Source: Streptomyces sp. NBC_00190 (GTDB lineage: Bacteria > Actinomycetota > Actinomycetes > Streptomycetales > Streptomycetaceae). Taken from it: a stretch of 64,000 nucleotides of DNA. The position numbers and the translations under genes were made by a program. This document shows positions 11,997 to 28,837 of this stretch, piece by piece. The notes below the pieces were generated by a model that ran no database searches, had not been told where the DNA came from, and worked only from the letters and a program-made list of their open reading frames with translations. The number at the start of each line of letters is the position of its first letter. The first letter of the stretch is position 1. The stretch is from the NCBI RefSeq assembly GCF_036203305.1, contig NZ_CP108131.1, positions 3,534,001 to 3,598,000 on the forward strand, read 5' to 3'.

Positions 11997-12068
11997 ATGT
12001 TGCAGAATGCCCGTAGCCGGGCCCATCCATCGGGCCTGCCGCGCCCCGCGTCCGGCGATACGGCGTGA
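11997..12068 (+). CDS. 23-aa leader ORF translationally coupled to the hydrolase
   Basis: An ATG with the excellent ribosome site AGGAGGAG opens a 23-codon frame (MLQNARSRAHPSGLPRPASG then DTA) whose TGA overlaps the GTG start of the downstream hydrolase as GTGA. The hydrolase start itself has no ribosome site. The arrangement indicates translational coupling or a leader-based control. No known attenuator peptide is recognised. Confidence 0.55.
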   Translation: MLQNARSRAHPSGLPRPASGDTA

Positions 12069-12892: not shown

Positions 12893-12903
12893 CCCCGCCC
12901 GCC

Positions 12904-13044
12904 CCGGCGGCGCCCACTCGCGCCCTGCACCTGCACGCCAACACGCTCACCTACCGGCTGGACCGCTGGCACGAGCTCACCGGCCCGGACCACCGCGACT
13001 ACATGGGGCTCGTCACCTCCCGCACGGCCGTGGGATGCGTCTGA
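12904..13044 (+). pseudogene. 3' fragment of a PucR/CdaR-type regulator gene
   Basis: In one frame the sequence reads ALHLHANTLTYRLDRWHELT followed by GPDHRDYMGLV and a stop at 13042-13044. This matches the C-terminal HTH_30 helix-turn-helix (HxNTLxYRLxRIxELTG) of PucR/CdaR-family regulators, which normally ends a protein of 400-600 aa. No start or upstream domain is present, so this is the remnant of a deleted gene. Confidence 0.75.
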
Positions 13045-13050
13045 GCCGTA

Positions 13051-13088
13051 CCGTCATCCACCGGACGGGCCGAGCCGGTGGATGACGG
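13051..13088. terminator. Hairpin terminator, 14-bp perfect stem
   Basis: CCGTCATCCACCGG (13051-13064) pairs with its complement (13075-13088) around a 10-nt loop. It follows immediately after the PucR-type fragment's stop codon and so was probably that gene's original terminator; it may now serve the alpha/beta hydrolase. Confidence 0.75.
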
Positions 13089-13152
13089 GGCACGGCCCGA
13101 TCCTCCCACGGCAGTGCGCCGTGGCGCGCTCACCGGGAGTACAGCCAGCTGA

Positions 13153-13440
13153 TCACCACCGCCCGATGGCCGGGGTGTATTCGCTGGGCTTGAAGACCAC
13201 CGTGTTGCCCGCCGCCAAGGCGTAGGCGATGGACCCGACAGGTGTGTGCACGGGGTAGTTCCACGGCCCGATCACACCGATGACGCCGTAGGGCCGGTAT
13301 TCCAGGGTCGCGAGGTGATTGAGCATCAGCAGACGCGACGGAACGCGTCGCCGCGCCAGCACGCTCCGCGCGTTGCGAGCGGACCAGTCCACGTGCGCCA
13401 GCCAGGCGCCCCGCTCCGCCCGGCATACGAGGCTCGCTGC
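13153..13440 (-). pseudogene. Internal fragment of an aldehyde dehydrogenase gene
   Basis: The minus strand encodes about 95 residues typical of the ALDH N-terminal NAD-binding region, including [20 protein letters not shown] and [20 protein letters not shown]. The frame has no proper start, and it ends at a stop soon after PAIGRW, before the catalytic cysteine region. The gene is truncated at both ends. A full ALDH of this class has about 490 residues. It lies divergently from the TetR gene. Confidence 0.85.
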
Positions 13441-13516
13441 GCACGCCGTACCGTCGTGCCCGGTTCCCTATCTGCCGGAGTGGGCTCCCGGCACGCGCTA
13501 GCGGCTCATAATGAAC

Positions 13517-13536: not shown

Positions 13537-13589
13537 GCGAGGCGGCCGACATCCGACCCGTCCATGAACACGCGTTGCAGGAGAGGCGA

Positions 13590-14249
13590 ATGGGGACAAA
13601 GCGAACCTTGCAGAACGTCGTGGACGCAGGCGGCCCTCACCGCCGGGACCTCGAAGCGAGGCGACGCATCCTCGCCTCCACACTCGAGCTGCTGGAGAAG
13701 CGCGGGTACGCGCGCCTGACCATCGAGCAGGTGGCCGTCAGCGCCAAGGTCGGCAAGGCCACTCTCTACCGGTCATGGCCCAACAAGGCGGCCCTGGTCC
13801 TCGACGCTGTGCGGAGCAGGCTCAAGGAAGTGCCCACCGTCGAGACCGGGAACACCCGCGACGAGCTGCTGAGCGTCGCGAAGGAAGCCCTCGCCAGCTT
13901 CTTCGGGTCCCCGCAGGTGCAGGCCATCCTTCCCGCGCTCGTCGCCGACACGGCACAGAACCCCGAACTGCGCCGGCAGTTGCGCGAAGAGGTGATCGAG
14001 CCGCGCCGAGCCCGTTCGCGCACGGTGATGGAGCGGGCGATCAGCCGTGGCGATCTCCCCGAGGACACCGACATCTCGCTGACACTGGAGATGTGGGCGG
14101 GAGCGATGATGTTCCGCAGCGTCTTCTACGACGGCGGTTACGACGACGACGCCCTGGCCCGGCTGGTGGACGCCACACTGGCCGCCCCGCCGCGCTTCGG
14201 CACCGCCGAAGGCACGGAGCCCGTCGACGGCACCGGCGACGGCGCCTGA
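13590..14249 (+). CDS. TetR-family transcriptional regulator
   Basis: This 219-aa protein has a TetR helix-turn-helix at about residues 38-62 (LTIEQVAVSAKVGKATLYRSWPNKAAL) and a C-terminal ligand/dimer domain with GSPQVQAILPALVADTAQNPEL..., typical of the TetR_C_16-like subgroup. The ATG is preceded by AGGAGAGG. A candidate operator upstream is shared with the SRPBCC promoter region, so it probably represses itself and that gene; the neighbouring hydrolase may belong to the same regulon. Confidence 0.88.
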   Translation: MGTKRTLQNVVDAGGPHRRDLEARRRILASTLELLEKRGYARLTIEQVAVSAKVGKATLYRSWPNKAALVLDAVRSRLKEVPTVETGNTRDELLSVAKEALASFFGSPQVQAILPALVADTAQNPELRRQLREEVIEPRRARSRTVMERAISRGDLPEDTDISLTLEMWAGAMMFRSVFYDGGYDDDALARLVDATLAAPPRFGTAEGTEPVDGTGDGA

Positions 14250-14497: not shown

Positions 14498-16183
14498 TCA
14501 CGTGTGCAAGTCGCGTGCCTGACGGCTGATCCGGCGGACCGCCCAGGCGATCACCACAGTCGACCGGGCGGCGAGCCACAGCACCGCGGAGGCATCCGGA
14601 CCGGCGGACGGTCCGGCCACGGTGTGCCAGAGCCAGGGGGCGGTCACGAACCCTGCGGCCAGGGCGGGTGCCAGTCGCCACAGCAGGAACGGCAGGGCGG
14701 CGTACCAGTCGAGCGAGAGCGCCAGGAGGTCGTACCGGGGCGCGCCCCGGTAGGCGCCGACCAGCACGGTTGCCACCAGCGCCGGCCCCGCGACGAGCAG
14801 CGTCACCGCATAGGCGGTGAGCGTTCCGGCGGGGGCGCCCGGCAGGAGAGCGGCCGACCGGGCGGCCGCGGCCGCCGCCCAGAGCAGCAGGACGGGCACC
14901 ACCAGGTGGCCGACGGCCAGGGCGGCGGGAGAGACGGGCAGCATCAGCGTCCGCCGCGGCCGGTCGGTGTCCTGGTAGGCCGGTTCGGCCAGGGCGACCG
15001 CGGCCAGATACGGGGGCACGACCAGGAACAGGCCCAGCGCAGTGGCTTGCAGCGGCCCGACCGGGCCGTGCGGGGTGTCCCGCATCCAGTGGGCGACCAG
15101 CTGGAGCTGGGTGACGCCGACGGCCAGCACCGCGAGGGCTGCGGCCGAGCGGCCGGGGTGGCGCAGGAAGACGACGGCGTCCCGCCACGGCCCCACCGCC
15201 CAGCGCGATCGAGGCAGCGGCAGACGCAGCCGTGGGCGCCGCCGTCCGGCGCGTGCGGCTGACTGCATCACCAGCGTCAGTGCTCGCAGGTCCAGCAGGG
15301 CCGCACCCTGCGCGGCCTGCCGACTGGTCCCGCCCCGGCTCGACAGTTCGGTGGCCGGGATGCTCCCGGCCACTTCGAAGGCCGACCGCAGTGCGGCGGC
15401 CGTACAGAGCAGGAGTACACCGAGCGCCGTCGCCCAGGTGGTCGCGTCGCCATGGGACGCCGCTACCGTCGCCCACCCCGACCAGCCCCACGGTCCGCAG
15501 AACGCGGCCGTCGCCGTCAGCGCGGGCACGGACGGGCCCGCGGCGACGACCACGCCGCCGGCCACGGCGAGACAGATGCCCAGGGCCCGGGCCTTGGGGG
15601 CCAGGGCCGGACGGGCCTCTGCCCATGCCCCCACGGCCACGGCCAGACAGGCCAGTGCCACATGCGCGCCGATGGCCACGGGCAGCACGGTGAGCCGCGG
15701 TCGTCCTTCGAGCAGGAGCGCGAGGGCGGCCATGAGGGTGCCGATGAGCAGTCCCGCGAGTGAGGCGGCGGACACGGCACGCATCAGGCGGGGCCGCAGG
15801 AGTCGTCCGCGGTCACCGGGCAGCGGTAGCAGCCAGGTGATCTCGGAGGCGGCGAGCAGCACCGGCCCGAGCCTCGTGCACACCGCCAGTTCGCCGGCCC
15901 ACAGCAGCAGGTTGGCGCCGACCAGCACGGCACGGGCCGTCGCGCCGCCGGACCAGCCGAGGGAGTGTCCTACGACCGGCGCCGTCTGTATCAGGCCGGC
16001 GAGCATGACGGCGACCGCGAGGGCGGCACACGCCCAGGTCCATACGTCGTCGAAGCGCAGCCGCCCCGAGCCCCGCTCGCGGCGGGCCGCCGTCATTCCT
16101 GCGATCGCCTCGGCCGTGGCGGCCGCCGGATCGGCGGCGGCGCGCCGTTCGCCCGCGCTGCGTGCGGTCACCGCCATGGCCAC
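14498..16183 (-). CDS. DUF6297-like polytopic membrane protein of the thiopeptide exporter
   Basis: The 561-aa protein has about ten to twelve hydrophobic helices beginning near residue 50 (WTWACAALAVAVMLAGLIQ), separated by short loops and one longer basic loop near residues 290-330. It matches the DUF6297-type permeases often found in thiopeptide and lantibiotic clusters. Its start overlaps the stop of the ABC ATPase gene, so the two should form a transporter that exports the product or confers self-resistance. A second ATG two codons in (16177) is equally possible. Last gene of the operon. Confidence 0.8.
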   Translation of the reverse strand: MAMAVTARSAGERRAAADPAAATAEAIAGMTAARRERGSGRLRFDDVWTWACAALAVAVMLAGLIQTAPVVGHSLGWSGGATARAVLVGANLLLWAGELAVCTRLGPVLLAASEITWLLPLPGDRGRLLRPRLMRAVSAASLAGLLIGTLMAALALLLEGRPRLTVLPVAIGAHVALACLAVAVGAWAEARPALAPKARALGICLAVAGGVVVAAGPSVPALTATAAFCGPWGWSGWATVAASHGDATTWATALGVLLLCTAAALRSAFEVAGSIPATELSSRGGTSRQAAQGAALLDLRALTLVMQSAARAGRRRPRLRLPLPRSRWAVGPWRDAVVFLRHPGRSAAALAVLAVGVTQLQLVAHWMRDTPHGPVGPLQATALGLFLVVPPYLAAVALAEPAYQDTDRPRRTLMLPVSPAALAVGHLVVPVLLLWAAAAAARSAALLPGAPAGTLTAYAVTLLVAGPALVATVLVGAYRGAPRYDLLALSLDWYAALPFLLWRLAPALAAGFVTAPWLWHTVAGPSAGPDASAVLWLAARSTVVIAWAVRRISRQARDLHT

Positions 16184-16887
16184 GCCGCCGACTCGGCGGT
16201 CACCTCGGCGGGCGTTCCGACGGCGGCCGTGCGGCCCCGCTCGAGCAGCAGTACCTCGTCGGCGACCTCGTCCACGACTCCGCGGTCGTGGGAGGCCAGC
16301 AGGATGGCCGTGCCGTTCCCCGTCGCGGCCCGCAGCGCGGCCGCGAGCCTGCGCCGGGCCCGTACGTCCAGCCGCTGTTCGGGCTCGTCCACGACGATCA
16401 GACGTGCGGGCCGTACCAGGACCGAGGCCAGCATGAGCATCTGCCGCTGTCCCGCCGACAAGGTGCCGGGGAAGGCGTCGAGCTGCTCCGCCAGCCCCAG
16501 TTCCGCCAGGACCCGGGCCGCCGCCGGCCCTGCGTCCGCGCCGAGGCCGTGGGCAGTGGCGACCATGCCCACGTGCTCGGCGACCGTCAGATCCGGGAAG
16601 CAGTCCGCCCCGTCGAGCAGCAGCGCGACGTCGCGGCGGAAGGCCACGTCCACTTCACGCGGCGGGGCGCCGGCGAAGCGCACTTCGCCCCGGTCCGGTT
16701 GCTGGCGGCCGACACACACACGCAACAGCGTCGATTTCCCGGAACCGTTGGCGCCCGCCAAGACCAGGCAACGGCCCGGTCCCAGTGCGAGGTTCACGTC
16801 CTCGAGCACGGCCTCGCCGTCATATTCGACGTGGACGCCGCCGACCCGCAGGAGATCCGGCCGCGGCGTGTCCGGTGCGTCAGTCAT
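16168..16887 (-). CDS. ABC transporter ATP-binding protein of the thiopeptide operon
   Basis: The 239-aa ATPase has Walker A GANGSGKST, a signature LSAGQRQ, Walker B RLIVVDEPE and the H-loop in LASHD. A usual Q-loop glutamine is not obvious: the region reads DVALLLDGADCFPDLTVAEH. It should power the neighbouring DUF6297-like membrane protein. The start overlaps the stop of the upstream biosynthetic gene by 4 bp (ATGA), and it overlaps the permease gene, placing export genes at the distal end of the operon. Confidence 0.92.
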   Translation of the reverse strand: MTDAPDTPRPDLLRVGGVHVEYDGEAVLEDVNLALGPGRCLVLAGANGSGKSTLLRVCVGRQQPDRGEVRFAGAPPREVDVAFRRDVALLLDGADCFPDLTVAEHVGMVATAHGLGADAGPAAARVLAELGLAEQLDAFPGTLSAGQRQMLMLASVLVRPARLIVVDEPEQRLDVRARRRLAAALRAATGNGTAILLASHDRGVVDEVADEVLLLERGRTAAVGTPAEVTAESAAWPWR

Positions 16888-17858
16888 TCCCCGCCGCCCG
16901 CTTCCCCGCTCGCGGCCCAGAGCCGCAGGGCTGCCTCCGCCAGAATAAATTCATCATGCACGAAGATACCAAGGCGGTTCAGCGTCATATGGGTGTGAGA
17001 GAGGAGAAGGCCGGTTTCCGCATCGTCGCCCAGAGAGGCAACTCCGAGCGGCAGCAGAGCGGTGAGCGATTCCAGCCACGGAGACACCGCGGAGGAGCGC
17101 TCGGCCAGAGCACGGGCGCTGACGCCGCCCTGCCCTGCGAGCACGTCGGCCCATCGGGCCGCCTGCCGGGCCAGTTCTCCCGACGGGAACACCTCTCGGG
17201 GAGCGGATGCGGACCAGCGCCGCCAGAAGTCGGCGTGACGCCGCAGTTGGCGTACGACGGGATCGCCGGCCGACGGGTCCGGAGCGGACAGCACGGCGGC
17301 CTTGAGGAGAACCTCGACGCCCAGGAGTCGTAGCCTCAGACCGTCCAGAGGGGACCCTGCGGCCCGCAGCGCCAGTTCGCTGGAGACCGTGAAGGCGGCC
17401 TCACTGGCCTCCAGGGCCGTACCGCTTCCGTAGCGTGCCGTTTCGGGCTCGTAGACCGCCGGGTGCACGCCAGGGGCGAGCACCGTGCCCGCCCGACGCT
17501 GGTCCACCGTTGGATCACTCGCGGTCGAGGCTGCTGCCAGGTCGCCGATGGAGCGCAGGTACTCCTGCGGAGCGTGGCCGTCCGACGGCAGACCGGCAAA
17601 GGCCCGCCGTACGGCCGCGTCCAGTTCCGCCGGCTGTGCGCCCGCCTGTGGCAGGAGCCGGATCCGCAGGTGCGGGCCGCCCTCCCAGTAGCGGATGAAG
17701 AACCAGCGGCGCAGCAGTCCGGCCTCCCGCAGCGGTGTGATCAGCGCGGGAAGGTTCTCCCGCACGAGCGGGGAGATGCGGTCGGTCCCGGAGCCGTCCG
17801 CCGGCACGTGCACGTGCCAGGCCAGCCAGCCGGATGCGTTGGGGTGGGGACTGGTCAT
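16884..17858 (-). CDS. Thiopeptide-type SpaB_C-domain protein (eliminase or pyridine synthase)
   Basis: This 324-aa stand-alone protein matches the thiopeptide-type bacteriocin biosynthesis domain (SpaB_C). Visible family signs are the N-terminal WLAWHVHVP..., RWFFIRYWEGGPHLRIRLLP at about residues 47-66, and a C-terminal HTHMTLNRLGI resembling the HMHxNRLxG block of LanB elimination domains. In thiopeptide pathways one such protein removes glutamate from glutamyl-Ser/Thr and another does the [4+2] cycloaddition that makes the pyridine ring; the two cannot be told apart safely by eye. Both ends overlap neighbours by 4 bp. Confidence 0.85.
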   Translation of the reverse strand: MTSPHPNASGWLAWHVHVPADGSGTDRISPLVRENLPALITPLREAGLLRRWFFIRYWEGGPHLRIRLLPQAGAQPAELDAAVRRAFAGLPSDGHAPQEYLRSIGDLAAASTASDPTVDQRRAGTVLAPGVHPAVYEPETARYGSGTALEASEAAFTVSSELALRAAGSPLDGLRLRLLGVEVLLKAAVLSAPDPSAGDPVVRQLRRHADFWRRWSASAPREVFPSGELARQAARWADVLAGQGGVSARALAERSSAVSPWLESLTALLPLGVASLGDDAETGLLLSHTHMTLNRLGIFVHDEFILAEAALRLWAASGEAGGGE

Positions 17859-19237
17859 GTGGTGCCTTCGTCTTCGCCGGACAGGGTGGGGGGCTGTCGT
17901 ACGTCCAGGGCGGGCTCGGTGAATCGGCCGGGGCCGCAGGCCAGTTGGTAGATCGGCACCTGGCCCGCGTCGAGCCGGAGTGCCTGGGCGGCGAGCTCGG
18001 CGTCGTAGCTGCGCAGCGGCCGCGCGAACAGCCCGTGCGCCGCCATGGCGTACGACAGGTGCTGCGCCGTCCAGCCGGCCGCTGCCAGCAGATCGGCGGC
18101 GATCCGCGGGGCGGGGGCCGGCGACGTGGCGCAGGCCAGGCCCGGGTCCGCGGTGAGCAGCCAGACCAGGTTGCAGGCGTTCAGTTCGAAGGCCAGCCCG
18201 GGTGCGGGAGCGGAGTCGATGAGCAGCGCGCCGCGCGCGGCCGCGAGGTCGCCCACACGGTGGGCCGAGCCGTCGAAGTGAACTCGGTGGCAACCGGGTT
18301 CCACGCCTTCGACATCGCGCACCCAGCAGTACAGGCCGAGGGCGGAGCGGGCTGCTCGGAGCGCTCCGAGGCTCTGGTCACCGGCTGCGAGCGCGGCCAG
18401 GGCGTCGCGCCATACGGGTGCCGTGACCGTGCGGTGGGTGCCGGTGAAACCCGAGACGCCGCGCGGCACTCGGCCGCTGTTGCGATTCCAGAGCACCTCG
18501 TTCCAGGTCGGTGCGGTGGTGGGGGCGTCCGGCGGTGCGGGGGGCCGCGCACTGCTGTCGTCCGTCATCCGGTAGCCGGGCAGGGCGGGGCCCGGCAGCG
18601 GGGCGGTCCAGGCAGGTGCGCCGTCCGTCGGACCGGTGACCGTCAGGGGACGGCCCAGGGCCCGGCCCAGCAGCGCCGTCGCGGCCAGGACGTGGCCGGT
18701 CTCCAGACCGGCCAGGACCGCCCGCAGCGGGCCGTAGAACGAAGGCAGGGCGGCGGGCAGCGAGAACGTCTCGATGTGGTCCGGCGCCCCGCCCGGCGCA
18801 GCGGGTACCCGGAGCGTCCCTGATGCCTCGGGTATCAGGAAGCCTGCGGCGCCCGCCTCGTGGGCGACGAGCCGAACGGGGAACTTGCAGCGGGCCGACG
18901 GGTACGCCCGGTGCTCGCTGTACGGATTGTCGGTCTCGAAACGGACCGGGGCGCAGACGGTGGCGGCGATCTCCTGCAAGGAGACACCGGCCGGCGGCCC
19001 GGCCGCCGGCCAGCGGGTGCGCTCCAGCAGGTCCCAGCGGGCGGGCACCCCGCCGGCCGGGCCGTCGGCGAGTGCGGCGACCGCGGCGCGCACCCGCTGC
19101 AGCTCGGGACGGGCTTCGGGGTCCACCCGGGTGTCACCGGACGGCTTGGCCGCCAGGATCGTGCGGAGCTCGGCCGGACGGTCGTCGTCGGGTCGGCCGG
19201 TTCCTGGTGAGGTGGGGGAGGGGGAAGGAACGACCAC
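17855..19237 (-). CDS. Two-lobed SagB/nitroreductase-like azoline dehydrogenase
   Basis: The 460-aa protein appears to contain two nitroreductase-fold halves: one around ETDNPYSEHRAYPSARCKFP (residues 100-210) and a second around NEVLWNRNSGRVPRGVSGFTG (residues 245-430). That is the layout of FMN-dependent dehydrogenases in thiopeptide and other azole-peptide pathways, which oxidise thiazolines to thiazoles. YPSARCKFPVRLV resembles the SPSaG.l.p.e.y segment of SagB enzymes. The GTG start has only a weak ribosome site, 66 bp after the YcaO gene; the stop overlaps the next gene. Confidence 0.85.
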   Translation of the reverse strand: MVVPSPSPTSPGTGRPDDDRPAELRTILAAKPSGDTRVDPEARPELQRVRAAVAALADGPAGGVPARWDLLERTRWPAAGPPAGVSLQEIAATVCAPVRFETDNPYSEHRAYPSARCKFPVRLVAHEAGAAGFLIPEASGTLRVPAAPGGAPDHIETFSLPAALPSFYGPLRAVLAGLETGHVLAATALLGRALGRPLTVTGPTDGAPAWTAPLPGPALPGYRMTDDSSARPPAPPDAPTTAPTWNEVLWNRNSGRVPRGVSGFTGTHRTVTAPVWRDALAALAAGDQSLGALRAARSALGLYCWVRDVEGVEPGCHRVHFDGSAHRVGDLAAARGALLIDSAPAPGLAFELNACNLVWLLTADPGLACATSPAPAPRIAADLLAAAGWTAQHLSYAMAAHGLFARPLRSYDAELAAQALRLDAGQVPIYQLACGPGRFTEPALDVRQPPTLSGEDEGTT

Positions 19238-19303
19238 GGACGGCAGCCACTTCTTTCGGAGTCAGGACACGGGAGGGTCCGGGGGCGGGACGGGGAGGCC
19301 GGT

Positions 19304-21178
19304 TCAGGGGAAGGGGTGGACCGTGAGCCGGTCCAGGGACGGGCCCAGTGGTCCCGTCGCCGCCAGGAGCCGGGGCAGACCGAAGACACGCTGATGGGCG
19401 AAACCGAAGGTCAGCGGGATGGATCCGGGTACGAGAACCCGTACGGCGCGCAGGCCCGCCGCGCGGTGCTCCCTCCCTGTCTGGTCCACGACGAGCACCT
19501 CGTCCATGCCCGCCTTCGTGAGCAGCGCGAGCATCGTGTCGCGTGCCTCCCCCAGCGTGCGCGCCCCGTGGAGGGGCGAGGCGGGGAAGGCGTCGGCCAG
19601 GGGCACCGGCGGACCGCTGAGGAACGGCTCGAAGGCAGGGGCCGCCTCGGGCACCGAGTACCACTGGATGTGGTCGTCGAGATCGGTCACGTTCCAGCGG
19701 TCGGCACGCAGCCGACGGGCGCGGGCGGGGTCGGGCGTGACCACGTCCCCCAGGACCAGCGGCGCCAGTTCGGCCACGGCGGCGCGCACGGCAGTGGCCG
19801 GATCGGGGTGGGCGGCCGCCGTGGTCAGGCTGTACTTCTCGGCGGAGCGCGGGTTGACGGCCAGGGCCCACACGGCCGGCACGGGCACGTCCTGGGTGAT
19901 GACGCACAAGTGCACCTCGTAACCGGCTGCGCGCATCGCCGCCCGCAGCTCGAGGGCCGTGGTGTCGGACACCGAGGACCAGTCGACGCGCGGGACCGGC
20001 TGCCCGGCCCACCAGGTCAGCAGGAACGCGTCCCGTTCGACGACTTCCAACAGCGCGTGCAGCGCCGCCTCGTCGACGGTGGCGCCCAGGGCGCAGCCGT
20101 TGGACGACTCGTACAGCACCCGCCCCCACTTCCGGCCCGGCCGGGGCTCGGGGTGCACGTGGTACGAGCCCGCTTCCAGCGGCACCCAGCAGGTGTCCGC
20201 CGTGCCCCAGACCCGGGCCGGAATCCACCGCAGGACGTCTTCCGGGGCGAACGGGTCGACCCGGCACGACGGATGTGCGTGCTGCTCCGGTGCGAGGACG
20301 CCGAGCCGGCGCGGGTCCAGCGCCCGCCCGGGCAGCGCGTCGTAGGCGCGGCGCAGCGGTCGGGCGGCGCGCACCACGGCTTCCGAACCGGAACGCTCCA
20401 GCCGCTCCAGCAGGGCGAGCCGGGACGCGGCCGCGACGGTGCGGCCCCGGCCGTAGCCCGCCGCCTCGGCGGCCGATCCGTGCCGGGCGTGCACCGCGGC
20501 CACCAGCGAGGCGGGGCTGTCCGGGACGGACTGGAGCCCCACCACCGGGCCGTACCGGTCATCGACCAGGAGCCCGGTCAAGGACTCCAGCGCGAGGTCC
20601 GGTCCCGGGATCTGCCTCATGTCCGCGTCCAGGTCCACGTCGTGAAGGTCCGGGTCCACCCCGTGTGGGCTGTCGGCCACGCCGGACGGGATCGGTGTGC
20701 CGGCGGTGTGCTCGCATGCGGGGCAGCCGGTCTGGGGCGCCACGCGGTGCCGGGAGCTGCCTCGGGGCGAGACCAGTACCGTTTCTCCAGGTTGCAGCCG
20801 TTCGTGGCACGCCAGGCGGACCGCGGCGCTCAGCGCGTGCAGCGCCGCCTCCGCGTGGTCCGCTCCGGCGGCCAGCCGCCGCGGAGGGTCGGTGATTCCG
20901 CGGGTACGCAGATGCGCGGACACCTGGCACAGGGGGCAGCCGCCTGCCACGCCCTCCCGCCACGGCGGCCCGATCTCCACCTCGGCGCCCCACAGGCGTA
21001 CGGGCAGCAGGGGCACGCCGAGCGCGGTGGCCCGCACCATCTGCTCCTGCTCCCAGGCGGCGTCGTGTCCGGCCACCAGCATGGTCAGTGCGCCGTATCC
21101 GGCGGCGAGTTCACCCAGTGCCTCTGCGGCTGGCTCGGGGAGCCGACTCGCTTCGTGGACCGCGAGCGGGGCAGTCAT
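19304..21178 (-). CDS. YcaO cyclodehydratase with N-terminal E1/TOMM partner-like region
   Basis: The 624-aa protein has an N-terminal remnant of a ThiF/TOMM partner domain (residues 1-190, with GGCPLC near 90 and GCPAC near 160, a likely zinc site) and a C-terminal YcaO domain (about 230-624). The ATP-binding segment SNGCALGATVDEAALHALLE with VVERDAF following lies at about 357-384. The protein ends in HPFP, like the C-terminal PxP motif of azoline-forming YcaO enzymes. It should phosphorylate the amide backbone to close Cys residues into thiazolines. Its ATG overlaps the upstream stop. Confidence 0.92.
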   Translation of the reverse strand: MTAPLAVHEASRLPEPAAEALGELAAGYGALTMLVAGHDAAWEQEQMVRATALGVPLLPVRLWGAEVEIGPPWREGVAGGCPLCQVSAHLRTRGITDPPRRLAAGADHAEAALHALSAAVRLACHERLQPGETVLVSPRGSSRHRVAPQTGCPACEHTAGTPIPSGVADSPHGVDPDLHDVDLDADMRQIPGPDLALESLTGLLVDDRYGPVVGLQSVPDSPASLVAAVHARHGSAAEAAGYGRGRTVAAASRLALLERLERSGSEAVVRAARPLRRAYDALPGRALDPRRLGVLAPEQHAHPSCRVDPFAPEDVLRWIPARVWGTADTCWVPLEAGSYHVHPEPRPGRKWGRVLYESSNGCALGATVDEAALHALLEVVERDAFLLTWWAGQPVPRVDWSSVSDTTALELRAAMRAAGYEVHLCVITQDVPVPAVWALAVNPRSAEKYSLTTAAAHPDPATAVRAAVAELAPLVLGDVVTPDPARARRLRADRWNVTDLDDHIQWYSVPEAAPAFEPFLSGPPVPLADAFPASPLHGARTLGEARDTMLALLTKAGMDEVLVVDQTGREHRAAGLRAVRVLVPGSIPLTFGFAHQRVFGLPRLLAATGPLGPSLDRLTVHPFP

Positions 21179-22680
21179 CGCACACCTCGCGGGATCCGCA
21201 CGAGCACACCGCACGCCAGCGGGGCGGCGCCGAGGAGCGCATCGGGTTCCGCGGCGCGGAAGGCGACCTCGTACCCCAGCAGGGCGGTCGCGACCGCCGT
21301 GGTGTCGGGCCGTTCCCGTGCGACGTCCGCGGCGATCCGGCAGTCGACACCCAAAGACCGCGCCAACTCGGCCGAGTGCGGGGACAGCTGGGCTCGGGCT
21401 CGGGCGCAGTCCGCCGCCGACTCCAGCGCACCGGCCCGGTCGAGGCCCCAGGCGCTCCCCCGCCACGGCCCCCGCGCCGTGACGGCCCCGTCGGCCCGGT
21501 ACTCGGCCTCGGCGAGCACCAGCCCCACGGCGGTCTCGTGCACCCGGTACCGCCATCCCGTGCCGTCTTCGGCGCGCTCGTCCGCAACGCCGTCGACCCA
21601 CTCCGGCTGTGCGTCGCCCACCCGCTCCGCGGCCGCTAGCCGCAAAGCCGCGTCCAGCAGGGCCACGTCTTCCGTGGCACCGGCGCCGCCGGCCGGATCA
21701 CCACCGCGCAGGAACGCCCGCAGCGCCTCCTGGTCCGCTTCGCCCCGGGTGCGTCCCCAGCCCACGGCCGACGACGCGTCAGGACGCCCGGGGCCAGGCA
21801 CGACGCGGCCCACGCACACGGGTAGTTGCGGCCAGTCGACGGGGGTGTCATGGCGATGACAGCCGATCAGCTCGTCGGCCCCGGGGCCGCTCATAGCGGG
21901 CACCGGGCCGGGCCCGTCAGCCGGCCCGGCAGCGGGCCGCAGCTCCACCGACCGCCAGCCCAGGGGTCGGGAGTCCACGATGTGCACGGTGCGTGCACCA
22001 TCGGCCGCAAGTCCGGTCAGCTCGCGGAAGGCCTGTTCGGCGGCGAGCCCCGCGGCGAGTCCGGCGGCCACCGCACCGGGCTCCCCCGGTACGGCCAGCC
22101 GGGCGCGCAGCGCGGCACGGCTGGCCGGGTCGGCGAGGCCGGAGGAGGCAACCCACAGGCGGGCTCCCGCCGGCTCCAGGCGTACGCGGAGACCCTGTTG
22201 GCTGATGGTCAGGGTCCACTCACCCGTATCCGGCTCGGTGCCGTCCGCCACGGTGCGCACGGCCACGCCGCGCTCGGCGAGCGACGCCTCGGCCGCCGCC
22301 GTGAGGGCCGTCGGCCCCGTGACCGTCACCTGTGCGGCCGCGAGTCGGTTCAGCGCCTCCTGCGGGCGGTCGCTGTAGCTCTCCACGTAGGCCACGGCGG
22401 CCTCCGGTACGCCCGGCGGGACGTCGTACGCGTCCACCAGCGCGCCATGGGAGCGCAGCTGCGCCACGACACGTTCGACGAAGGGCGCCGCCTTCGGGTT
22501 GCCGGTCGCCGCCACGAGTTCGTCGGTCGTACGAGGCTCCTCCAGCGCCCGGATCCAGGCGCAGGCCGGCTCCACCAGGGGCGCCGGCAGTTTGAGGGTG
22601 AAGGACTCGCCTGGTGTCTGGACGAACACGCCTCCCGCGACGGCCCCGTACACGGTGCTGGGGCGGAGTTTCACGAGCAT
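21175..22680 (-). CDS. Ocin-ThiF-like leader-binding partner of the cyclodehydratase
   Basis: This 501-aa protein begins MLVKLRPSTVYGAVAGGVFVQTPGESFTLKLPA, resembling the RiPP-recognition-element start of Ocin-ThiF-like proteins (TbtF type), and continues with a degenerate E1 fold. In thiomuracin biosynthesis TbtF binds the precursor leader and delivers it to the YcaO enzyme TbtG. The same two proteins are adjacent here with an ATGA overlap. The start follows the preceding stop by a single base (TGA C ATG), so translation is coupled. Confidence 0.82.
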   Translation of the reverse strand: MLVKLRPSTVYGAVAGGVFVQTPGESFTLKLPAPLVEPACAWIRALEEPRTTDELVAATGNPKAAPFVERVVAQLRSHGALVDAYDVPPGVPEAAVAYVESYSDRPQEALNRLAAAQVTVTGPTALTAAAEASLAERGVAVRTVADGTEPDTGEWTLTISQQGLRVRLEPAGARLWVASSGLADPASRAALRARLAVPGEPGAVAAGLAAGLAAEQAFRELTGLAADGARTVHIVDSRPLGWRSVELRPAAGPADGPGPVPAMSGPGADELIGCHRHDTPVDWPQLPVCVGRVVPGPGRPDASSAVGWGRTRGEADQEALRAFLRGGDPAGGAGATEDVALLDAALRLAAAERVGDAQPEWVDGVADERAEDGTGWRYRVHETAVGLVLAEAEYRADGAVTARGPWRGSAWGLDRAGALESAADCARARAQLSPHSAELARSLGVDCRIAADVARERPDTTAVATALLGYEVAFRAAEPDALLGAAPLACGVLVRIPRGVR

Positions 22681-22681
22681 G

Positions 22682-23692
22682 TCAGGCGGGCCTCACTTTG
22701 AGTCGGTCCTGCCAGGGCTCGCCGAGCCGAACGTCTATGGCGTTGGCCAGGCTGTGGCAGTACAGGTAGCGGTTGAGCGGTGTGACGCCGAGCCATTGCA
22801 GGGCTTCGTACAGCCAGTTCACGACGGCTCTGAAGGCCGTGAAGGCGGCCGGCGCGTTCTGTCCGAAACCGCCTTCGGCGAGCTGTCGGTGGAAGGCGCT
22901 CGGCGCGCTGCCCGTGTCCGGGGCGCGGCCCCCCGCGACGAGCACGTCGAGATCCGGGCGCAGAGCGGGGTCGCTCAGCTGCCGGCAGGCGGCCACGCAC
23001 GCGGCGTGCCCCGGCAGCTGCTCCGGCCGGTGCAGCGCGATGTCCACCAGCCGGTCGGTCTGCGGGCGGTGGCGTTCGGCGGCGGTGGTGAAGCGGACCC
23101 GCAACTCCTCGCCGTCCGGGCGGGAGGCGAGGAACGCCTCTGCGTGGGAGTGGAACGAGAGAGAACCGAACCGTGCTCCGCCCGGGTAGGCCGCCGCCAC
23201 GGCCGCCATCCATTGCAGGGCGAGTCCGGGCGCGCGGGACCGGGCCGTCGCCGCGTCCTCGGTCAGCCCCTCGGGGAGCAGGAGGGCGAGCTCGGTGAGG
23301 AACCGGTGCCGTGCCGCCTCCACCGGGCCGGGGGCGACGGGGTCGGTGGAGACGGCCACGGCCGCGTGCGGATACGGCAGGGCGTGCCGGACCTCGGTGC
23401 CCTCGGACGCCGCCAGCGAGCGGACGCGACGCCGGTACTCCCCGGCGGACCAGGCGTCTCCCGTCCCGGCCGCCGCCGCGAGCCGCTCCCGCACGGTCGC
23501 GAGAGCCGCGGCGGACGGCGATCCGTACCCCAGGTGCAGGGCGAGGTGGGGGCCGCCGTCCCAGTGCCGGGTGGGGAAGCACACGGGGACGGCGGTGTCC
23601 GCCGCGAAGTCCGCCACGAGTGGCAGCACGCCGCCGGTGAGCAGGGGGAAGGGGTCCCCCCGGTAGTCATGGACGCGCACGGTGGTCAGCAC
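22682..23692 (-). CDS. Thiopeptide-type SpaB_C-domain protein, second copy
   Basis: This 336-aa stand-alone SpaB_C-like protein directly follows the LanB-type gene. The family pattern is visible in PVCFPTRHWDGGPHLALHLGYG (about residues 32-53) and in a diverged C-terminal block TPLNRYLYCHSLANAIDV, corresponding to the HMHxNRL block of elimination domains. Position next to the glutamylation gene favours the eliminase role (TbtC-like), leaving the [4+2] pyridine synthase role for the other copy, but the reverse cannot be excluded. The GTG start lies five bases after the upstream stop. Confidence 0.8.
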   Translation of the reverse strand: MLTTVRVHDYRGDPFPLLTGGVLPLVADFAADTAVPVCFPTRHWDGGPHLALHLGYGSPSAAALATVRERLAAAAGTGDAWSAGEYRRRVRSLAASEGTEVRHALPYPHAAVAVSTDPVAPGPVEAARHRFLTELALLLPEGLTEDAATARSRAPGLALQWMAAVAAAYPGGARFGSLSFHSHAEAFLASRPDGEELRVRFTTAAERHRPQTDRLVDIALHRPEQLPGHAACVAACRQLSDPALRPDLDVLVAGGRAPDTGSAPSAFHRQLAEGGFGQNAPAAFTAFRAVVNWLYEALQWLGVTPLNRYLYCHSLANAIDVRLGEPWQDRLKVRPA

Positions 23693-23696
23693 GCCG

Positions 23697-26246
23697 TCAT
23701 CCCCTCCCCGGTGTCTGTGGTGCGTCGGCGTCGGCGTCGGCGTTCGCCGCGTCGAACTCGTAGACCGCCTCGCGGACGGACCTGCCGGCGACCGGCTCGG
23801 GCAGGCACTCCTCCAGGAACGGGTGGGTGAAGTCGGCCGCGTCCTTGGCGAACGAGCCGAGTCCCAGCGCGCCGGCCGTGTCGACGAAACGGGGCTTGGG
23901 CTGCGGGGCCGGGCGCGCCGTGACGTCCGGTACGAGCGCTTCGCCTCGCTGCCACGGCGGCAGCTGTTTGACGAAGAACCGTGCGGGAACTCCGTGTTCG
24001 GCCAGGGTCCGCACCAGGCGGTGCAGGTCGTCGGCCGAGCCCCGGTGCGCATCGGTCAGTACGGAGGCGTCCGGCAGGTACCAGCGTCGCCGCTGGAGCA
24101 CGAGGTTCCCGTAGCGCAGGCGGGGGACGGCGAGGACACCGTCGGCGCCGGGCCGGACCGTATCGCGGTACACGTGGTCATACGAACAGCTGAGCAACCC
24201 GCCGCCCTGGAGCCACAGTGCGATCCGGCTGGGCGCGGGCAGCAGGTCCCACCGGGTGGAGGTGACGGTCACCGGGTGCAGAGCGCGCGGCATCTCCCAG
24301 GAGAGCCGGCCGGGAGGCCCGTCGTCGACCAGGAACGTCCGTGCCCAGTCCGCCGGACCCATGACGTCGTCGAGGAGCTGCGGATGGCAGCCGGTGTTGA
24401 ATCCGTGGGCGGACCGGTCCTCGGCCGCTCCGGGGCCGAGGAGCCGGCGCAGGCGCAGCTTCAGCAGATCTGTGGCGTCGCCACCCGCGGCGGCGTCAAG
24501 GTGGAGGAAGCGTGCCGCGGTGGCGCCGAGCCCGCCGAAGATGCTGTTGGCCACCCAGTCGCCCGCCGCGTGCTGGGCCATCAACGCGTAGGAGGTGCTG
24601 TCCTGGTGCAGCCACGCGGGGAGGGCCGCGGCCCATGTCCGTACGGACTCCTCCCCGATGACGGCTTCCGTGCCGTCTCCGGCTGCGGCCGCCGAGGCCA
24701 GCAACGCGGCCAGGTCCGCCAGGATCCGGTGCCGGAACCGCCACAGCTCGTCCATGGAGGCTTGGATCTCCGGGTCCGGAAGCCGCCCCCCGGCCGCCGC
24801 CGAGGTGGCGAGCCGGGCGGCCTCGTCCGCGAGGCCCTCCGCGTCTTCCAGCAGCCGGGCCCTGCCTCCCCGTACGCGCAGCGCGGCCTGCAGGGCCAGC
24901 CGGAGATCGGCTTTGAGGTCGAAGGCGGCGAGCACGGGCAGCAGATCCGCCGCGGCGCGCAGCACGGTCGTGGGACGCGGGGTGGCGGGCAGGTCGGCGA
25001 CGGCGTCCTCGTAGACCCGCAGCGGCAAGGTGTCGGGGTGCGGCAGCCGTTCGGCCGCCGCACGCAGGCGTCCCATCAGCCCGGGCCGGGACTCCGCGTC
25101 GTCGGTGGCCAGGAGGCCGGTCAGCTCGGTGATGTCCCGCAGCGTGGGCCGAAGACCGCCGTCCTGCCGCCCGCCGTCCTGCCGGCCGCCGTCCTGCGTT
25201 CCGTCGTCTTCGGGCAGCGCGTCGAGGCACGCCTGGAGGAAGCGCGGGTCCTGGTCGTCCACGGGGAGCGCGGGGGCGAGCAGGCCGGCTTTGAGGGCGG
25301 CGCGCATCACCTGCAGAGCCCGGCTGACGGAGCAGTCGAGCGCCGAGGCGAGCGAGTCGGCCAGCGTCTCCCAGGGGTGCACGCCGAAGCGGCAGGCGGC
25401 GATCAGTTCGCCCAGCTCGCGGCTGCGGCGCAGGGTCACCTTCCGCGGCCGGGGCGGCCGACCCGTGATCGCCATGAAGGCCGTCTCGGACGCGGCCGCG
25501 GGCAGCAGCGGAGCGAGCCGTACGTGCCCCGCCGTACCCGGATCGGGTTCGAGAGCGGACAGCAGCGCACCGCGCTGCACATCGACGGCGCGCAGGATGC
25601 CGGATGGCGGGGCGGCCTCCCAGCTCGCAACATCGGCCGGCGTGGCGTCGGAAGCGGCGAGGGCGGACATCGCGACGACGGTGAAGACGGAGCGCGGACT
25701 GGTGCGGGTCATGCTCCGCAGGGCGTAGGCGGTGATACGGGGCTCCGACTTGCGGTCGGCCCGGTCCGCCGTGCCCGCTCCCGCCGCGTAGCGGCGTACC
25801 GCGTGCCCCAGGTCAGGGCTCACCAGCTCGACCGATGACGACAGGGTCGGCCATGCGCACACGGTGCTCAAGGCGAAGCGCTCATGGAGCAGTTCGCCCT
25901 CGCGTTCGCGTGTCACGGCGGCCAGGAGGTCCCGATAGGCGGCGGCTGCCGCGTGCCAGCGGCGCACTGCCGGTTCGCAGTGGGCCTGGGCGGCGCGCGT
26001 ATCGGGCAGTGGCGTCATCGGCTTTTCGCGGATCCTGCGCCGCAGCCGTACGTACTCGGGGCGGCCGCCATCCTGCCCTGCGGCGGACTTCAGTTCGTCG
26101 TCCGCTGCACGGGCCGCCCCGAGTGCCTGCACGGCCGTGGTGAGCAGTCGGTCCCACGAGGCGGCGGCCCGGGGCCGCACCAGCGGGGTGTACGGAAGTG
26201 GATTGACCCGCGTGGTGGCTGTTTCGGCCACGACGAATCGCCTCAT
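23697..26246 (-). CDS. LanB-type dehydratase, glutamylation subunit (TbtB-like)
   Basis: The 849-aa protein matches the lantibiotic-dehydratase N-terminal domain, which uses glutamyl-tRNA to glutamylate Ser and Thr of the precursor. Visible landmarks are the N-terminal NPLPYTPLVRPRAA, SRSPRSVFTVVAMSAL-like RTSPRSVFTVVAM near residue 180, and KVTLRRSRELGELIAAC near 270. It has no fused elimination domain; that function is on a separate gene, the split form typical of thiopeptide clusters. The ATG follows AAGAGGGGGA. One short region (reverse of 25140-25200) repeats the tripeptide-like RQDGG several times. Confidence 0.88.
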   Translation of the reverse strand: MRRFVVAETATTRVNPLPYTPLVRPRAAASWDRLLTTAVQALGAARAADDELKSAAGQDGGRPEYVRLRRRIREKPMTPLPDTRAAQAHCEPAVRRWHAAAAAYRDLLAAVTREREGELLHERFALSTVCAWPTLSSSVELVSPDLGHAVRRYAAGAGTADRADRKSEPRITAYALRSMTRTSPRSVFTVVAMSALAASDATPADVASWEAAPPSGILRAVDVQRGALLSALEPDPGTAGHVRLAPLLPAAASETAFMAITGRPPRPRKVTLRRSRELGELIAACRFGVHPWETLADSLASALDCSVSRALQVMRAALKAGLLAPALPVDDQDPRFLQACLDALPEDDGTQDGGRQDGGRQDGGLRPTLRDITELTGLLATDDAESRPGLMGRLRAAAERLPHPDTLPLRVYEDAVADLPATPRPTTVLRAAADLLPVLAAFDLKADLRLALQAALRVRGGRARLLEDAEGLADEAARLATSAAAGGRLPDPEIQASMDELWRFRHRILADLAALLASAAAAGDGTEAVIGEESVRTWAAALPAWLHQDSTSYALMAQHAAGDWVANSIFGGLGATAARFLHLDAAAGGDATDLLKLRLRRLLGPGAAEDRSAHGFNTGCHPQLLDDVMGPADWARTFLVDDGPPGRLSWEMPRALHPVTVTSTRWDLLPAPSRIALWLQGGGLLSCSYDHVYRDTVRPGADGVLAVPRLRYGNLVLQRRRWYLPDASVLTDAHRGSADDLHRLVRTLAEHGVPARFFVKQLPPWQRGEALVPDVTARPAPQPKPRFVDTAGALGLGSFAKDAADFTHPFLEECLPEPVAGRSVREAVYEFDAANADADADAPQTPGRG

Positions 26247-26319
26247 GCAGGCGGTCCCCCTCTTTCTTGCCGCGGCCGCTCGTGCCGGCCGGTCTTGCCT
26301 GTCCCCGTGATCGGGAGGT

Positions 26320-26353
26320 GTTGCCGAGGACCATGGACGCGGCCCTCGGCAAC
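26320..26353 (-). terminator. Attenuator-like hairpin between precursor and enzyme genes
   Basis: GTTGCCGAGG and CCTCGGCAAC form a 10-bp perfect stem, extendable by about three pairs, around a short loop. It starts seven bases after the precursor stop codon. Such partial terminators after RiPP precursor genes let the peptide be made in excess over the enzymes downstream. There is no U-tract. Confidence 0.65.
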
Positions 26354-26359
26354 GGCTGA

Positions 26360-26512
26360 TCAGCTGCTGCTGCTGCAGCAGGAACAGCTGGCCCGGCAGC
26401 ACGAGGCTCCGTCGGATGCCCCCATCACCGGCAGGCCGGTGGTGTCGGGTACGTCCTCCACGGAGATCTCCTCGAGCGAGAACTCCTCGAACTCGATGTC
26501 GAGTGTGTTCAT
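26360..26512 (-). CDS. Thiopeptide precursor peptide, core SCCRASCSCCSSSS
   Basis: The 50-aa peptide starts at an ATG preceded by GGGGAGGTGCC. Residues 1-36 form an acidic leader beginning MNTLDIEFEEFSLEEISVED and ending ...MGASDGA, comparable to the TbtA leader that ends ...TEVGA. Residues 37-50 are the predicted core SCCRASCSCCSSSS. Five cysteines can become thiazoles and the serines dehydroalanines. Core Ser1 and Ser11 are placed like the two serines that form the pyridine in 29-membered thiopeptides. It is the first gene of the operon. The cut site and ring size are inferred; the peptide's identity is strongly supported by the full enzyme set next to it. Confidence 0.93.
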   Translation of the reverse strand: MNTLDIEFEEFSLEEISVEDVPDTTGLPVMGASDGASCCRASCSCCSSSS

Positions 26513-26790
26513 GGCACCTCCCCTTCATCGACTGTCCGGGCACGCCTGCGTCAGTCGGCACACCCGTCAGTAGCGAACATTCGTTCGCTTCCGTTGATCA
26601 TGCCAGTCACCAATCGCCCCCTCTTGGCCGGAATCGGACATTCCCGATTGGTCAATACACGCAGGAGACCTGCTCCAGACGGGGGTCTCGATTTCTTCGC
26701 ACGGCAAAAATGTCCACAGCACTGGAGGAACGTCCACATATGCGAGTCTGGCTTGATATAGCCCTGGAGGAATCGCCAAGATCAACCGGC
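26513..26790 (-). promoter_or_regulatory. Promoter region of the thiopeptide operon with two inverted repeats
   Basis: This locally AT-richer stretch precedes the precursor gene. It contains an 18-bp palindrome AGCGAAC-ATTC-GTTCGCT at 26572-26589, and an 8-bp inverted repeat ACCAATCG (26609-26616) with CGATTGGT (26645-26652). On the minus strand TATATC near 26758 with TTGATC about 19 bp before it is a weak promoter guess. No cluster-specific regulator gene is adjacent, so control may come from elsewhere. Confidence 0.5.
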
Positions 26791-27249
26791 CCCCGAGGGT
26801 GGGCCGACGCGGCGGCGGAGGCCGGCCCCAGCCGCCACCAGCGGCAGCATGACCGGAGCACCCCCCTCATCCCCCAACTGGGAGAGCTCGCCGATACGTT
26901 CGCCGACCCGCCTCGCCCACGCCGTGCGTCAGGACCTTCCCCCTCCCGAAGCGCGCCGCTCCTTGAGCAACCCCCAGCGGCACCAGCCCATCGCCGACGA
27001 CAAACGACCAGAACCCCCAGGTCACAGCCCTGCCGTCAGCACAACCCCACTCCCACGGCAATCCATGCGACCAGTCCCAGCACGATCCGCTAGGCTGTCG
27101 GTGGTCAGTCGGCTACTGCGCGCGTGTTGGCGAAAGTGTCCGCCCGGGCACCCCACCCGACACCTGCACCTGCCAGCTGACCAGGGCGTTTGATGCGCCG
27201 GGGAGGGCGAACCCCACTGGGGTTTCCCTCACGGTCTCCGTCAAGCCCC
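26791..27249. other. Gene-free stretch between thiopeptide operon and tRNA
   Basis: About 460 bp with several open frames on both strands, but none has a ribosome site, a recognisable domain or the usual codon bias. I see no transposon ends or duplicated tRNA 3' end. It may hold the tRNA promoter and decayed sequence. Confidence 0.5.
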
Positions 27250-27322
27250 GCCTTCGTAGCTCAGGGGATAGAGCACGGCTCTCCTAAAGCCGGTGTCGCA
27301 GGTTCGAATCCTGCCGAGGGCA
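27250..27322 (+). tRNA. tRNA-Arg (anticodon CCT)
   Basis: A complete cloverleaf can be drawn: acceptor GCCTTCG pairing with CGAGGGC (one G-U), D-arm around GCTCAGGGGATAGAGC, anticodon stem CGGCT/AGCCG with loop CTCCTAA (anticodon CCT at 27283-27285), and T-arm CAGGTTCGAATCCTG. The discriminator is A and CCA is not encoded. It reads AGG codons, which are rare in high-GC genomes. Confidence 0.95.
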
Positions 27323-27328
27323 CAGACC

Positions 27329-27362
27329 GAGGACCCCCAGCCGATTTCGGCCGGGGGTCCTC
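27329..27362. terminator. Hairpin terminator shared by tRNA-Arg and the histidine kinase gene
   Basis: GAGGACCCCCAGCCG pairs with CGGCCGGGGGTCCTC around ATTT, one A-C mismatch in a 15-bp stem. It lies between the rightward tRNA and the end of the leftward kinase gene. Confidence 0.85.
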
Positions 27363-27398
27363 GTCGTCGTGGCCCAACAGGCGGGCCCGGTGCGGGAG

Positions 27399-28667
27399 TT
27401 ACTCCGCGCCTTCGGTGGCCGGCGGTGCGGGGAGGGCGAGGCGGGCCTCGGCGCCCCCCCGAGCGGGGTTGCGGAAGGCGAGGGTGGCGCCCAGGGCGCG
27501 GGCCTGGCCCGCGGCGATGGTCAGGCCCAGGCCGTGGCCCTTGTTCATGCCCTCCGTACGGAACCGCTGCGGGCCGGCGGTCAGGAGGTACTCCGGGTAG
27601 CCCGGGCCCGCGTCCGTCACGGTCAGGGTCCGGCCGTCCACCGTGACCGTGACCGGGGCCGCGCCGTGCTTGTGGGCGTTGGCGATGAGGTTGCCCAGGA
27701 TCCGCTCCAGGCGGCGCCGGTCCGTCTCCACCCGGAGGGACGAGACCACCTCCAGGGCCGTGTCCGCGCCCGAGGCGCGGATCGTACGGGCCGCCAGGTC
27801 GGCCAGGTCGTACGAGTCGAGGTCCACGCGCTCCGTGCCCGTGTCCAGCCGGGAGATCTCCAGCAGGTCCTCGGTGAGCGCGCGCATGGCCCGTACGCGG
27901 TCCCGTACGAGCTCGGCCGGGCGGCCCGGCGGCAGGAGCTCGGCGGCCGCGTTCAGGCCGGTCAGGGGGGTGCGGAGCTCGTGGGCGACGTCCGCCGTGA
28001 ACCGCCGCTCGGCTTCCAGCTTGCACTGGAGCGAGGAGGCCATCGTGTCCAAGGCCCGGGAGACGGCCGCCACCTCGTCCTTGTTCCGCGGGCTGTCGCC
28101 GACCCGCGCGTCCAGGTCGCCCGCGCTGATCCGGCGGGCGACCTGCGCGGTCAGGTGCAGCCGCCGGGTGATCCGGGTGACGCCGAGCGCGCCGATCAGG
28201 AGGGTGCCGCCGATGGCGAGCACCGAGGAGCCGAGGATGGCCCGGTCCAGTTCGGCGATGGTCCGCTCGGCGGCGGTGAAGTCGACGGAGACGGCTATGG
28301 CGCTGTCGTGGTCGGCCGGGGCCGCCGCCCACATGGCGGACCGGCCGCGGTGTTCGCCGATGGCCGTGCCGCGCTTGCCGCTGATCGCCAGCCGGCGCAG
28401 TTCCGCGGGCAGACCGACCGGGTCTATGCCCTCGCCCCGCGCCATGCGCGCGCCGGCCTCGTACGACGCGACGGTCCGCTCCAGCTTGGCGAGCGCCTTC
28501 TCGCGCGCCGTGCCGACGGTCTGGTGCGTCATGGCGTTGTGCACGAGGCCGCCGAGCAGGGCCGCGAGGCCGCAGCACATGAAGGTGATGAAGAGGGCGG
28601 CCTTCCAGGTCAGTGTGGAGGTCCAGGCGGGCAGCCGGAGGCTGATCGTGCGCTGGGTCTCGTTCAT
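27399..28667 (-). CDS. Membrane sensor histidine kinase, apparently orphan
   Basis: The 422-aa kinase has a transmembrane helix at about residues 18-40, a periplasmic sensor of about 105 residues, a second helix near 148-168, a HAMP segment, the H-box FTADVAHELRTPLTG with phosphorylated His229, and an ATPase domain with N box NLIANAHKHG, TDAGPGYP and GHGLGL. The ATG at 28667 fits the first helix; a longer frame exists upstream but lacks a ribosome site. No response-regulator gene adjoins it on either side, so its partner must be encoded elsewhere. Confidence 0.88.
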   Translation of the reverse strand: MNETQRTISLRLPAWTSTLTWKAALFITFMCCGLAALLGGLVHNAMTHQTVGTAREKALAKLERTVASYEAGARMARGEGIDPVGLPAELRRLAISGKRGTAIGEHRGRSAMWAAAPADHDSAIAVSVDFTAAERTIAELDRAILGSSVLAIGGTLLIGALGVTRITRRLHLTAQVARRISAGDLDARVGDSPRNKDEVAAVSRALDTMASSLQCKLEAERRFTADVAHELRTPLTGLNAAAELLPPGRPAELVRDRVRAMRALTEDLLEISRLDTGTERVDLDSYDLADLAARTIRASGADTALEVVSSLRVETDRRRLERILGNLIANAHKHGAAPVTVTVDGRTLTVTDAGPGYPEYLLTAGPQRFRTEGMNKGHGLGLTIAAGQARALGATLAFRNPARGGAEARLALPAPPATEGAE

Positions 28668-28837
28668 GATCCTGCGGACCCGTCCGTCCTCAGTTGTCCG
28701 GCGCCGGGCTCCCCGGCCAGCCCACCGTAATCGGCCTGCCTGAGCGGGCATCAGGCGGCCTCCGGTCGAGATCACGCCAGATCAGGCCAGATCGCGGCGG
28801 ATCGCGGCGCGGCGAGGGCGCCGCGCAGGACGCACGA

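Follow-up and report, generated by a model that had tools for sequence, protein, structure and literature searches.

A compact gene cluster for a very probable thiopeptide

We are highly confident that the DNA analyzed here, a 64,000-nucleotide stretch of Streptomyces sp. NBC_00190 (the window; G000:C1:3534001-3598000, within an 8.9-Mb genome), carries a complete minimal thiopeptide pathway encoded by nine genes. These genes are tightly packed on the - strand between positions 14498 and 26512, every frame is open, and the spacing between neighbors, running from 26512 to 14498, is 113, 4, 1, -4, 66, -4, -4 and -16 bases. A preliminary description of this DNA had reported a precursor, a split LanB protein, two lone SpaB_C proteins, an Ocin-ThiF-like protein, a YcaO enzyme, a dehydrogenase and an ABC/DUF6297 pair. 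All of these were confirmed in the window, and each enzyme role as then named is supported by a family model, a sequence match to a solved structure or a fold match. The features are as follows:

26360..26512, - strand: precursor peptide, 50 aa; PF19409 and NF033400 above cut-off
26320..26353, - strand: hairpin of 14 pairs without a U tract, six bases past the precursor stop; from folding and relatives
23697..26246, - strand: split LanB glutamylation protein (TbtB/LazB role), 849 aa; PF04738 at 46.6 bits, Lant_dehydr_C not matched
22682..23692, - strand: pyridine synthase (TbtD/PbtD/LazC role), 336 aa; TbtD (PDB 5wa3) at E 1e-14, PbtD at 7e-8
21175..22680, - strand: Ocin-ThiF-like F protein (TbtF/PbtF/LazD role), 501 aa; RRE fold match
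19304..21178, - strand: YcaO cyclodehydratase, SagD-type (TbtG/LazE role), 624 aa; TIGR03604 and PF02624
17855..19237, - strand: two-lobed azoline dehydrogenase of FMN nitroreductase fold (TbtE role), 460 aa; nitroreductase fold match
16884..17858, - strand: glutamate elimination protein (TbtC role), 324 aa; PF14028 and TIGR03891
16168..16887, - strand: ABC transporter ATPase, 239 aa; PF00005; 76% in the NBC_01214 relative (L057)
14498..16183, - strand: DUF6297 protein, probable exporter permease, 561 aa; PF19814 at 36.2 against 29.8

The enzyme set and the precursor indicate that the product is very probably a thiopeptide, with the chemistry taken from known Tbt and Laz biochemistry. The window combines the elements of a pyridine-type thiopeptide system: a precursor matching its family model, a pyridine synthase, a YcaO enzyme with an F protein and a dehydrogenase, and a split LanB protein. 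As in thiopeptide precursors, a Cys/Ser-rich core follows an acidic leader. The precursor scores 37.1 against a cut-off of 23.5 for PF19409 and 31.7 against 30 for NF033400, and the YcaO protein scores 239.6 against 219.25 bits for TIGR03604 and 239.2 against 25.7 for PF02624. The protein at 16884-17858 was assigned to glutamate elimination because it matches TIGR03891 (104 against a cut-off of 48.45) and PF14028 (119.5 bits), while the other Lant_dehydr_C protein matches TbtD and PbtD. PDB sequence searches with the LanB and elimination proteins gave 0 matches, and those with the dehydrogenase and the F protein returned just chance-level unrelated entries.

Residues 1-90 of the F protein model reach block pLDDT values of 73-89, and the predicted N-terminus matches the solved RRE of PbtF in Foldseek (8t19, E 6e-4); this N-terminal RRE would presumably bind the leader. 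A profile of the F protein pooled with relatives also matched the N-terminus of the lactazole-type F protein (E 2.3e-5; shuffles 0.44-0.93), compared with 0.013 for the two-sequence profile alone. F-protein profiles had no match in two proteins of the GE37468-type locus L063. Against the GE37468-type SagB protein, the clade profile of the dehydrogenase did no better than shuffles (0.37; shuffles 0.18-0.34), and a pooled profile gave 0.052 (shuffles 0.16-0.36). An exporter role for the DUF6297 protein is suggested by its pairing with the ABC gene; thiopeptides together with DUF6297 found no mention in the open-access literature.

Other peptide classes draw on parts of the same machinery. Pyritides need no enzymes beyond split LanB proteins and a pyridine synthase, but a pyritide-like product with a pyridine ring and few azoles is scarcely credible here, given five core cysteines and open frames for the YcaO, F protein and dehydrogenase genes. 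It is highly improbable that the product is a goadsporin-like linear peptide with azoles and dehydroalanines: goadsporin clusters likewise combine a YcaO enzyme with split LanB proteins, but in the accessible part of PMC4603692 they are described without a [4+2] enzyme. The window encodes a TbtD relative, and this gene adjoins the precursor and LanB genes in 3/3 related loci.

Relatives, conservation and integrity of the cluster

The members of the window's own clade are Streptomyces sp. NBC_01214, S. bambusae SK60, WAC06614 and NPDC051104. Among these relatives the complete gene set was found only in NBC_01214 (L057, the same locus as L004), which has all nine genes in the same order with best segments 57-85% identical, including the DUF6297 protein at 61% over residues 44-561. 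Loci L003 and L005 stop at contig edges; their fragments carry the precursor, LanB and pyridine synthase genes, and L003 additionally the start of the F gene. The preliminary description had put the conservation of the precursor frame in related clusters at issue; besides the window's own, five distinct precursor sequences preserve this frame. Its size had been presented there as unannotated; this did not hold, since 50 aa is ordinary and NCBI already names relatives.

Of the 392 same-genus genomes sampled, 3 encode a pyridine synthase with 66% identity or more, the window's genome being one of them. PF19409 matches at E 0.01 in 50/392 and above cut-off in 40. The protein database holds 3 precursors and, among the best 8000 candidates, at least 11 pyridine synthases and at least 19 dehydrogenases, the window's own included. 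Since genome mining finds such clusters routinely (50/392), the thiopeptide class itself is not news; the class is already known, while the core sequence and the enzyme branch appear to be uncharacterized.

Several observations weigh against the assignment proposed here. The choice of ring partner discussed below follows a rule of thumb. The pyridine synthase is distant from TbtD, as its NF045556 score of 115.7 bits lies far below the equivalog cut-off of 325. In family-model scans neither the F protein nor the dehydrogenase had a family match of its own, and the F protein model has a mean pLDDT of 46.0 and is poor past about residue 110. In the relatives, the L057 dehydrogenase (L057:3797-5166 (-)) and the L003 LanB protein (L003:7138-9854 (+)) each match as two pieces in different frames, so these copies may be broken, split or mis-sequenced. 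The same frame changes would fit a silent or decayed cluster that yields no product, as would the lack of a promoter-like site upstream: a scan of 26240-27400 gave 0 promoters with the sigma-70 consensus only, a weak test for Streptomyces. The scan gave 0 terminators as well. We nevertheless consider decay unlikely: all nine frames in the window are open, and compared with three relatives 10-12/32 leader codons of the precursor differ, but only 2/18 core codons.

Precursor core and predicted macrocycle

The precursor leader ends ...TTGLPVMGA and its core is SDGASCCRASCSCCSSSS; we infer the core start at GA^S (VMGA^SDGASCCRASCSCCSSSS) from the family GA^S rule. The core opens at the S of GAS in nearly all precursors listed, the lactazole, GE37468 and CCSSSS types included, in lists drawn by composition filters, one of which itself demanded [AGS]S near the end. 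Both the lactazole-type stretch GASWGSCSCQ and the GE37468-type GASTNCFCYICC show GAS at the core start, whereas L060 and L061 each have a single precursor with AAS instead. Three noise-like frames (L068:14742, L070:17268 and L072:4038) were omitted from the comparison, and in L058 the composition filters found no precursor. Six distinct clade precursors retain ASCC[RA]ASCSCCSSSS, with core variation confined to positions 2 (D, S, K, N), 3 (G, A) and 8 (R, A). The string SCCRASCSCC had no match in the open-access literature, and SDGASCCRASCSCCSSSS had none in the accessible part of the ThioFinder paper (PMC3454323).

Precursors elsewhere are more varied. L060 and L061 have three each and L067 two; cores in L060 and L061 end in CCSSSSSSCC or CCSSSSSSCCCC, preceded by variable residues. 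In a relative's precursor at L064:9191-9442 (+), which scores 22.2 for PF19409, under the cut-off, about 30 residues (VIIIISYTEDGEEILTEDTLNDVGSGSL) separate MGAS from an STSSSCC tail, which would mean either a very large ring or a different core design.

In the pathway that we propose, the leader would be bound by the F protein, which together with the YcaO enzyme would convert the five core cysteines to thiazolines, and the two-lobed dehydrogenase would turn these into thiazoles. The split LanB protein would glutamylate serines with Glu-tRNA as donor, and the separate elimination protein would strip the glutamate to leave dehydroalanines (Dha); Ser1 and Ser12 are the minimum expected, and Ser10 is a probable third site. 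The pyridine synthase would then join Dha1 and Dha12 by a formal [4+2] reaction, releasing the leader as an amide. The resulting pyridine macrocycle would be 32-membered, have a tail of thiazolyl and Ser/Dha units, and be exported by the ABC/DUF6297 pair. The core start, the choice of Ser12, the dehydration count and the export step are thus presumptive parts of this scheme.

We modestly favor the Ser1-Ser12 ring. In known thiopeptides the pyridine serine is flanked by azoles, and Ser12 is the sole serine between two cysteines, which predicts a lactazole-sized, 32-membered ring system with five thiazoles and one Arg. In a gap-free alignment with the lactazole core, Ser1, Gly3, Cys7, Ala9, Ser10, Ser12 and Cys13 line up, and residue 2 is unable to form an azole in either peptide. 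Applied to the lactazole core with four azoles, our mass formula gives m/z 701.203, 692.197 and 710.208. These values equal the published ones of 701.20, 692.20 and 710.20, in a source whose accessible part also has Ser1 and Ser12 of lactazole forming the pyridine, thiazoles at 5, 7 and 13 and an oxazole at 11 (PMC7210931). Applied to the window core, the same formula predicts [M+H]+ = 1529.354 - n x 18.011, where n is the number of dehydrations beyond Ser1 and Ser12 (0 to 6).

A thiopeptide with a 29-membered, GE2270/thiomuracin-like ring between Ser5 and Ser15, in which SDGA would stay on the leader, differs in ring and not in class. The SCC...CCS arrangement does resemble the classic S-C...C-C-S frame, and the ten-residue step is likewise classic. 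We regard this ring as rather unlikely, because almost every precursor seen has GAS where its core begins, the residue after Ser15 is Ser and not Cys, and the YcaO and pyridine synthase trees place the enzymes apart from those of the GE37468-type locus. In addition, the core is missing the Asn that 29-membered EF-Tu binders keep, according to the accessible parts of PMC3917276 and PMC7136475.

Target and resistance

In those same two sources, 26-membered rings are tied to the ribosome/L11 and 29-membered rings with the conserved Asn to EF-Tu (PMC3917276, PMC7136475). With no Asn, the window core lacks the mark of the EF-Tu type (thiomuracin/GE2270), and on the preferred 32-membered reading its ring would have the size of neither known target class. 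Lactazole A is described as inactive against bacteria in the accessible part of PMC7210931. The thiostrepton-resistance methylase model PF04705 had 0 matches in the window's own genome. That genome has two EF-Tu genes, at G000:C1:4731827-4733011 and 1551946-1553121 (L074, L075), neither near the cluster, of which one fits the model distinctly less well than the other (566.5 against 727.7 bits), and two TipAS-domain genes, none of them near the cluster.

A hairpin between precursor and enzyme genes

The hairpin past the precursor stop may serve as an attenuator or as an mRNA processing site that separates the precursor from the enzyme genes. A 78-nt piece containing it folds at -37.1 kcal/mol (z -2.45), with 2/200 shuffles equally good, and a hairpin occurs at about the same position in 3/3 relatives. 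In the four-sequence, 10-pair stem 40/40 cells are paired and two pairs are changed on both sides; 29/500 shuffles score as high, and slid versions reach at most 57.5% paired. This covariation is modest evidence, since the three relatives have identical stem letters and thus amount to one evolutionary comparison.

Taken at its fullest, the cluster would specify a new scaffold that falls outside the ribosome/L11 and EF-Tu classes: a 32-membered ring, rich in bithiazole and carrying an Arg, to which a thiazole-thiazole-tetraSer/Dha tail is attached. The hairpin would set the dosage of precursor to enzymes. We put this reading as a whole forward tentatively, as a possibility that we would not yet bet on.

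Phylogeny and likeness to known systems

Trees of the YcaO, pyridine synthase and elimination proteins (14, 15 and 14 rows, midpoint root) omit L003, L004 and L005 as duplicate or partial, include L056 for the pyridine synthase only, and use the last 380 residues of the L066 pyridine synthase. Because the loci were picked by pyridine synthase or precursor matches and all rows are thiopeptide-type, these trees are unable to reveal whether the enzymes fall with other azole systems. The refuting case named in the preliminary description, in which the SpaB_C and YcaO proteins would side with non-thiopeptide azole or lanthipeptide systems, was thus addressed indirectly, by way of the pyridine synthase and the precursor. 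The window and its NBC_01214 relative, joined by L056 for the pyridine synthase, form a starred clade in all three. In the YcaO tree this clade joins eight loci at 98/96, apart from the lactazole-type L068 and the GE37468-type L063; five of the eight (L059-L062, L071) have CCSSSSSS(SS)CC-type cores. Deeper forks are weak in the pyridine synthase and elimination trees, where 4/12 and 4/11 branches are starred, respectively; in the latter the fork has weak support (73/82), and of all rows beyond the clade L068 has the shortest path to it. As judged from these sequences, the enzymes apparently belong to an uncharacterized branch of thiopeptide enzymes.

The lactazole system (laz, Streptomyces lactacystinaeus, with L068 as stand-in) is compact like the window's cluster, and in both the precursor gene is followed by those for glutamylation, the pyridine synthase, the F protein and YcaO, in that order. 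In contrast, elimination and dehydrogenase functions form one 560-aa LazF-type fusion in L068 and two genes in opposite order in the window. The L068 YcaO and pyridine synthase do not group with the window's, so that two marks of the lactazole family, the fusion and the enzyme grouping (YcaO 98/96; pyridine synthase), are both lacking. Further differences are the five cysteines, Arg8, the four-Ser tail and the attached ABC/DUF6297 genes. Thiomuracin/GE2270 (tbt, pbt) and GE37468 place the same functions on separate proteins, as the window does, and the window resembles TbtD/PbtD by sequence and the PbtF RRE by fold, but gene order differs, the window core is without the conserved Asn and the GE37468-type L063 falls elsewhere in the YcaO and pyridine synthase trees. 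Thiomuracin, the model invoked in the preliminary description, thus accounts for what the enzymes do, but it is not the closest relation of the cluster: the enzymes have a clade of their own, and in gene order the lactazole type is more similar.

By the YcaO tree, the nearest enzymes outside the clade are those of the uncharacterized Streptomyces loci L058-L062, L067 and L071, 5/7 of which have CCSSSSSS-type cores. Long profile matches link the dehydrogenase to L058 (5e-31) and L062 (9e-33) and the F protein to this locus group (2.4e-25). Identity to the window is about 27-41% in best segments, and unlike in the window the pyridine synthase gene precedes LanB where both were found. The value of the cluster lies in its compact, complete enzyme set, its apparently uncharacterized branch and its Arg-containing, Cys-rich, four-Ser-tailed substrate; with the predicted mass ladder in hand, it could become a second minimal in vitro thiopeptide system next to lactazole.

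Surroundings of the cluster

A tRNA gene (27250-27322 (+)) and a histidine kinase gene (27399-28775 (-)) adjoin the cluster; an Rfam scan of the window at gathering scores found one tRNA and nothing else. The histidine kinase had no match in 21 related loci, and eight flanking proteins had zero matches in the 21 loci at E 1e-8, which speaks for a cluster boundary on the precursor side. The loci compared extend several kb past that side. The boundary on the DUF6297 side is less well supported, as only about 1.4 kb (L004) could be compared beyond it.

Farther out, a 659-aa frame at 29199-31178 (-) shows very strong codon-position GC bias and had no Pfam match at 0.01. On the other side, a 1117-aa polysaccharide deacetylase/family 2 glycosyltransferase fusion lies at 6921-10274 (+). 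It is followed by a stretch of weak codon-position signal (10300-13500) that holds two frames, one resembling a polyketide cyclase (11002-12072 (-)) and the other for an alpha/beta hydrolase (12065-12892 (+)), with a TetR gene beyond it at 13575-14249. A second YcaO gene of the same genome, at G000:C1:5982272-5983321 (L002), is 32% identical to the cluster YcaO.

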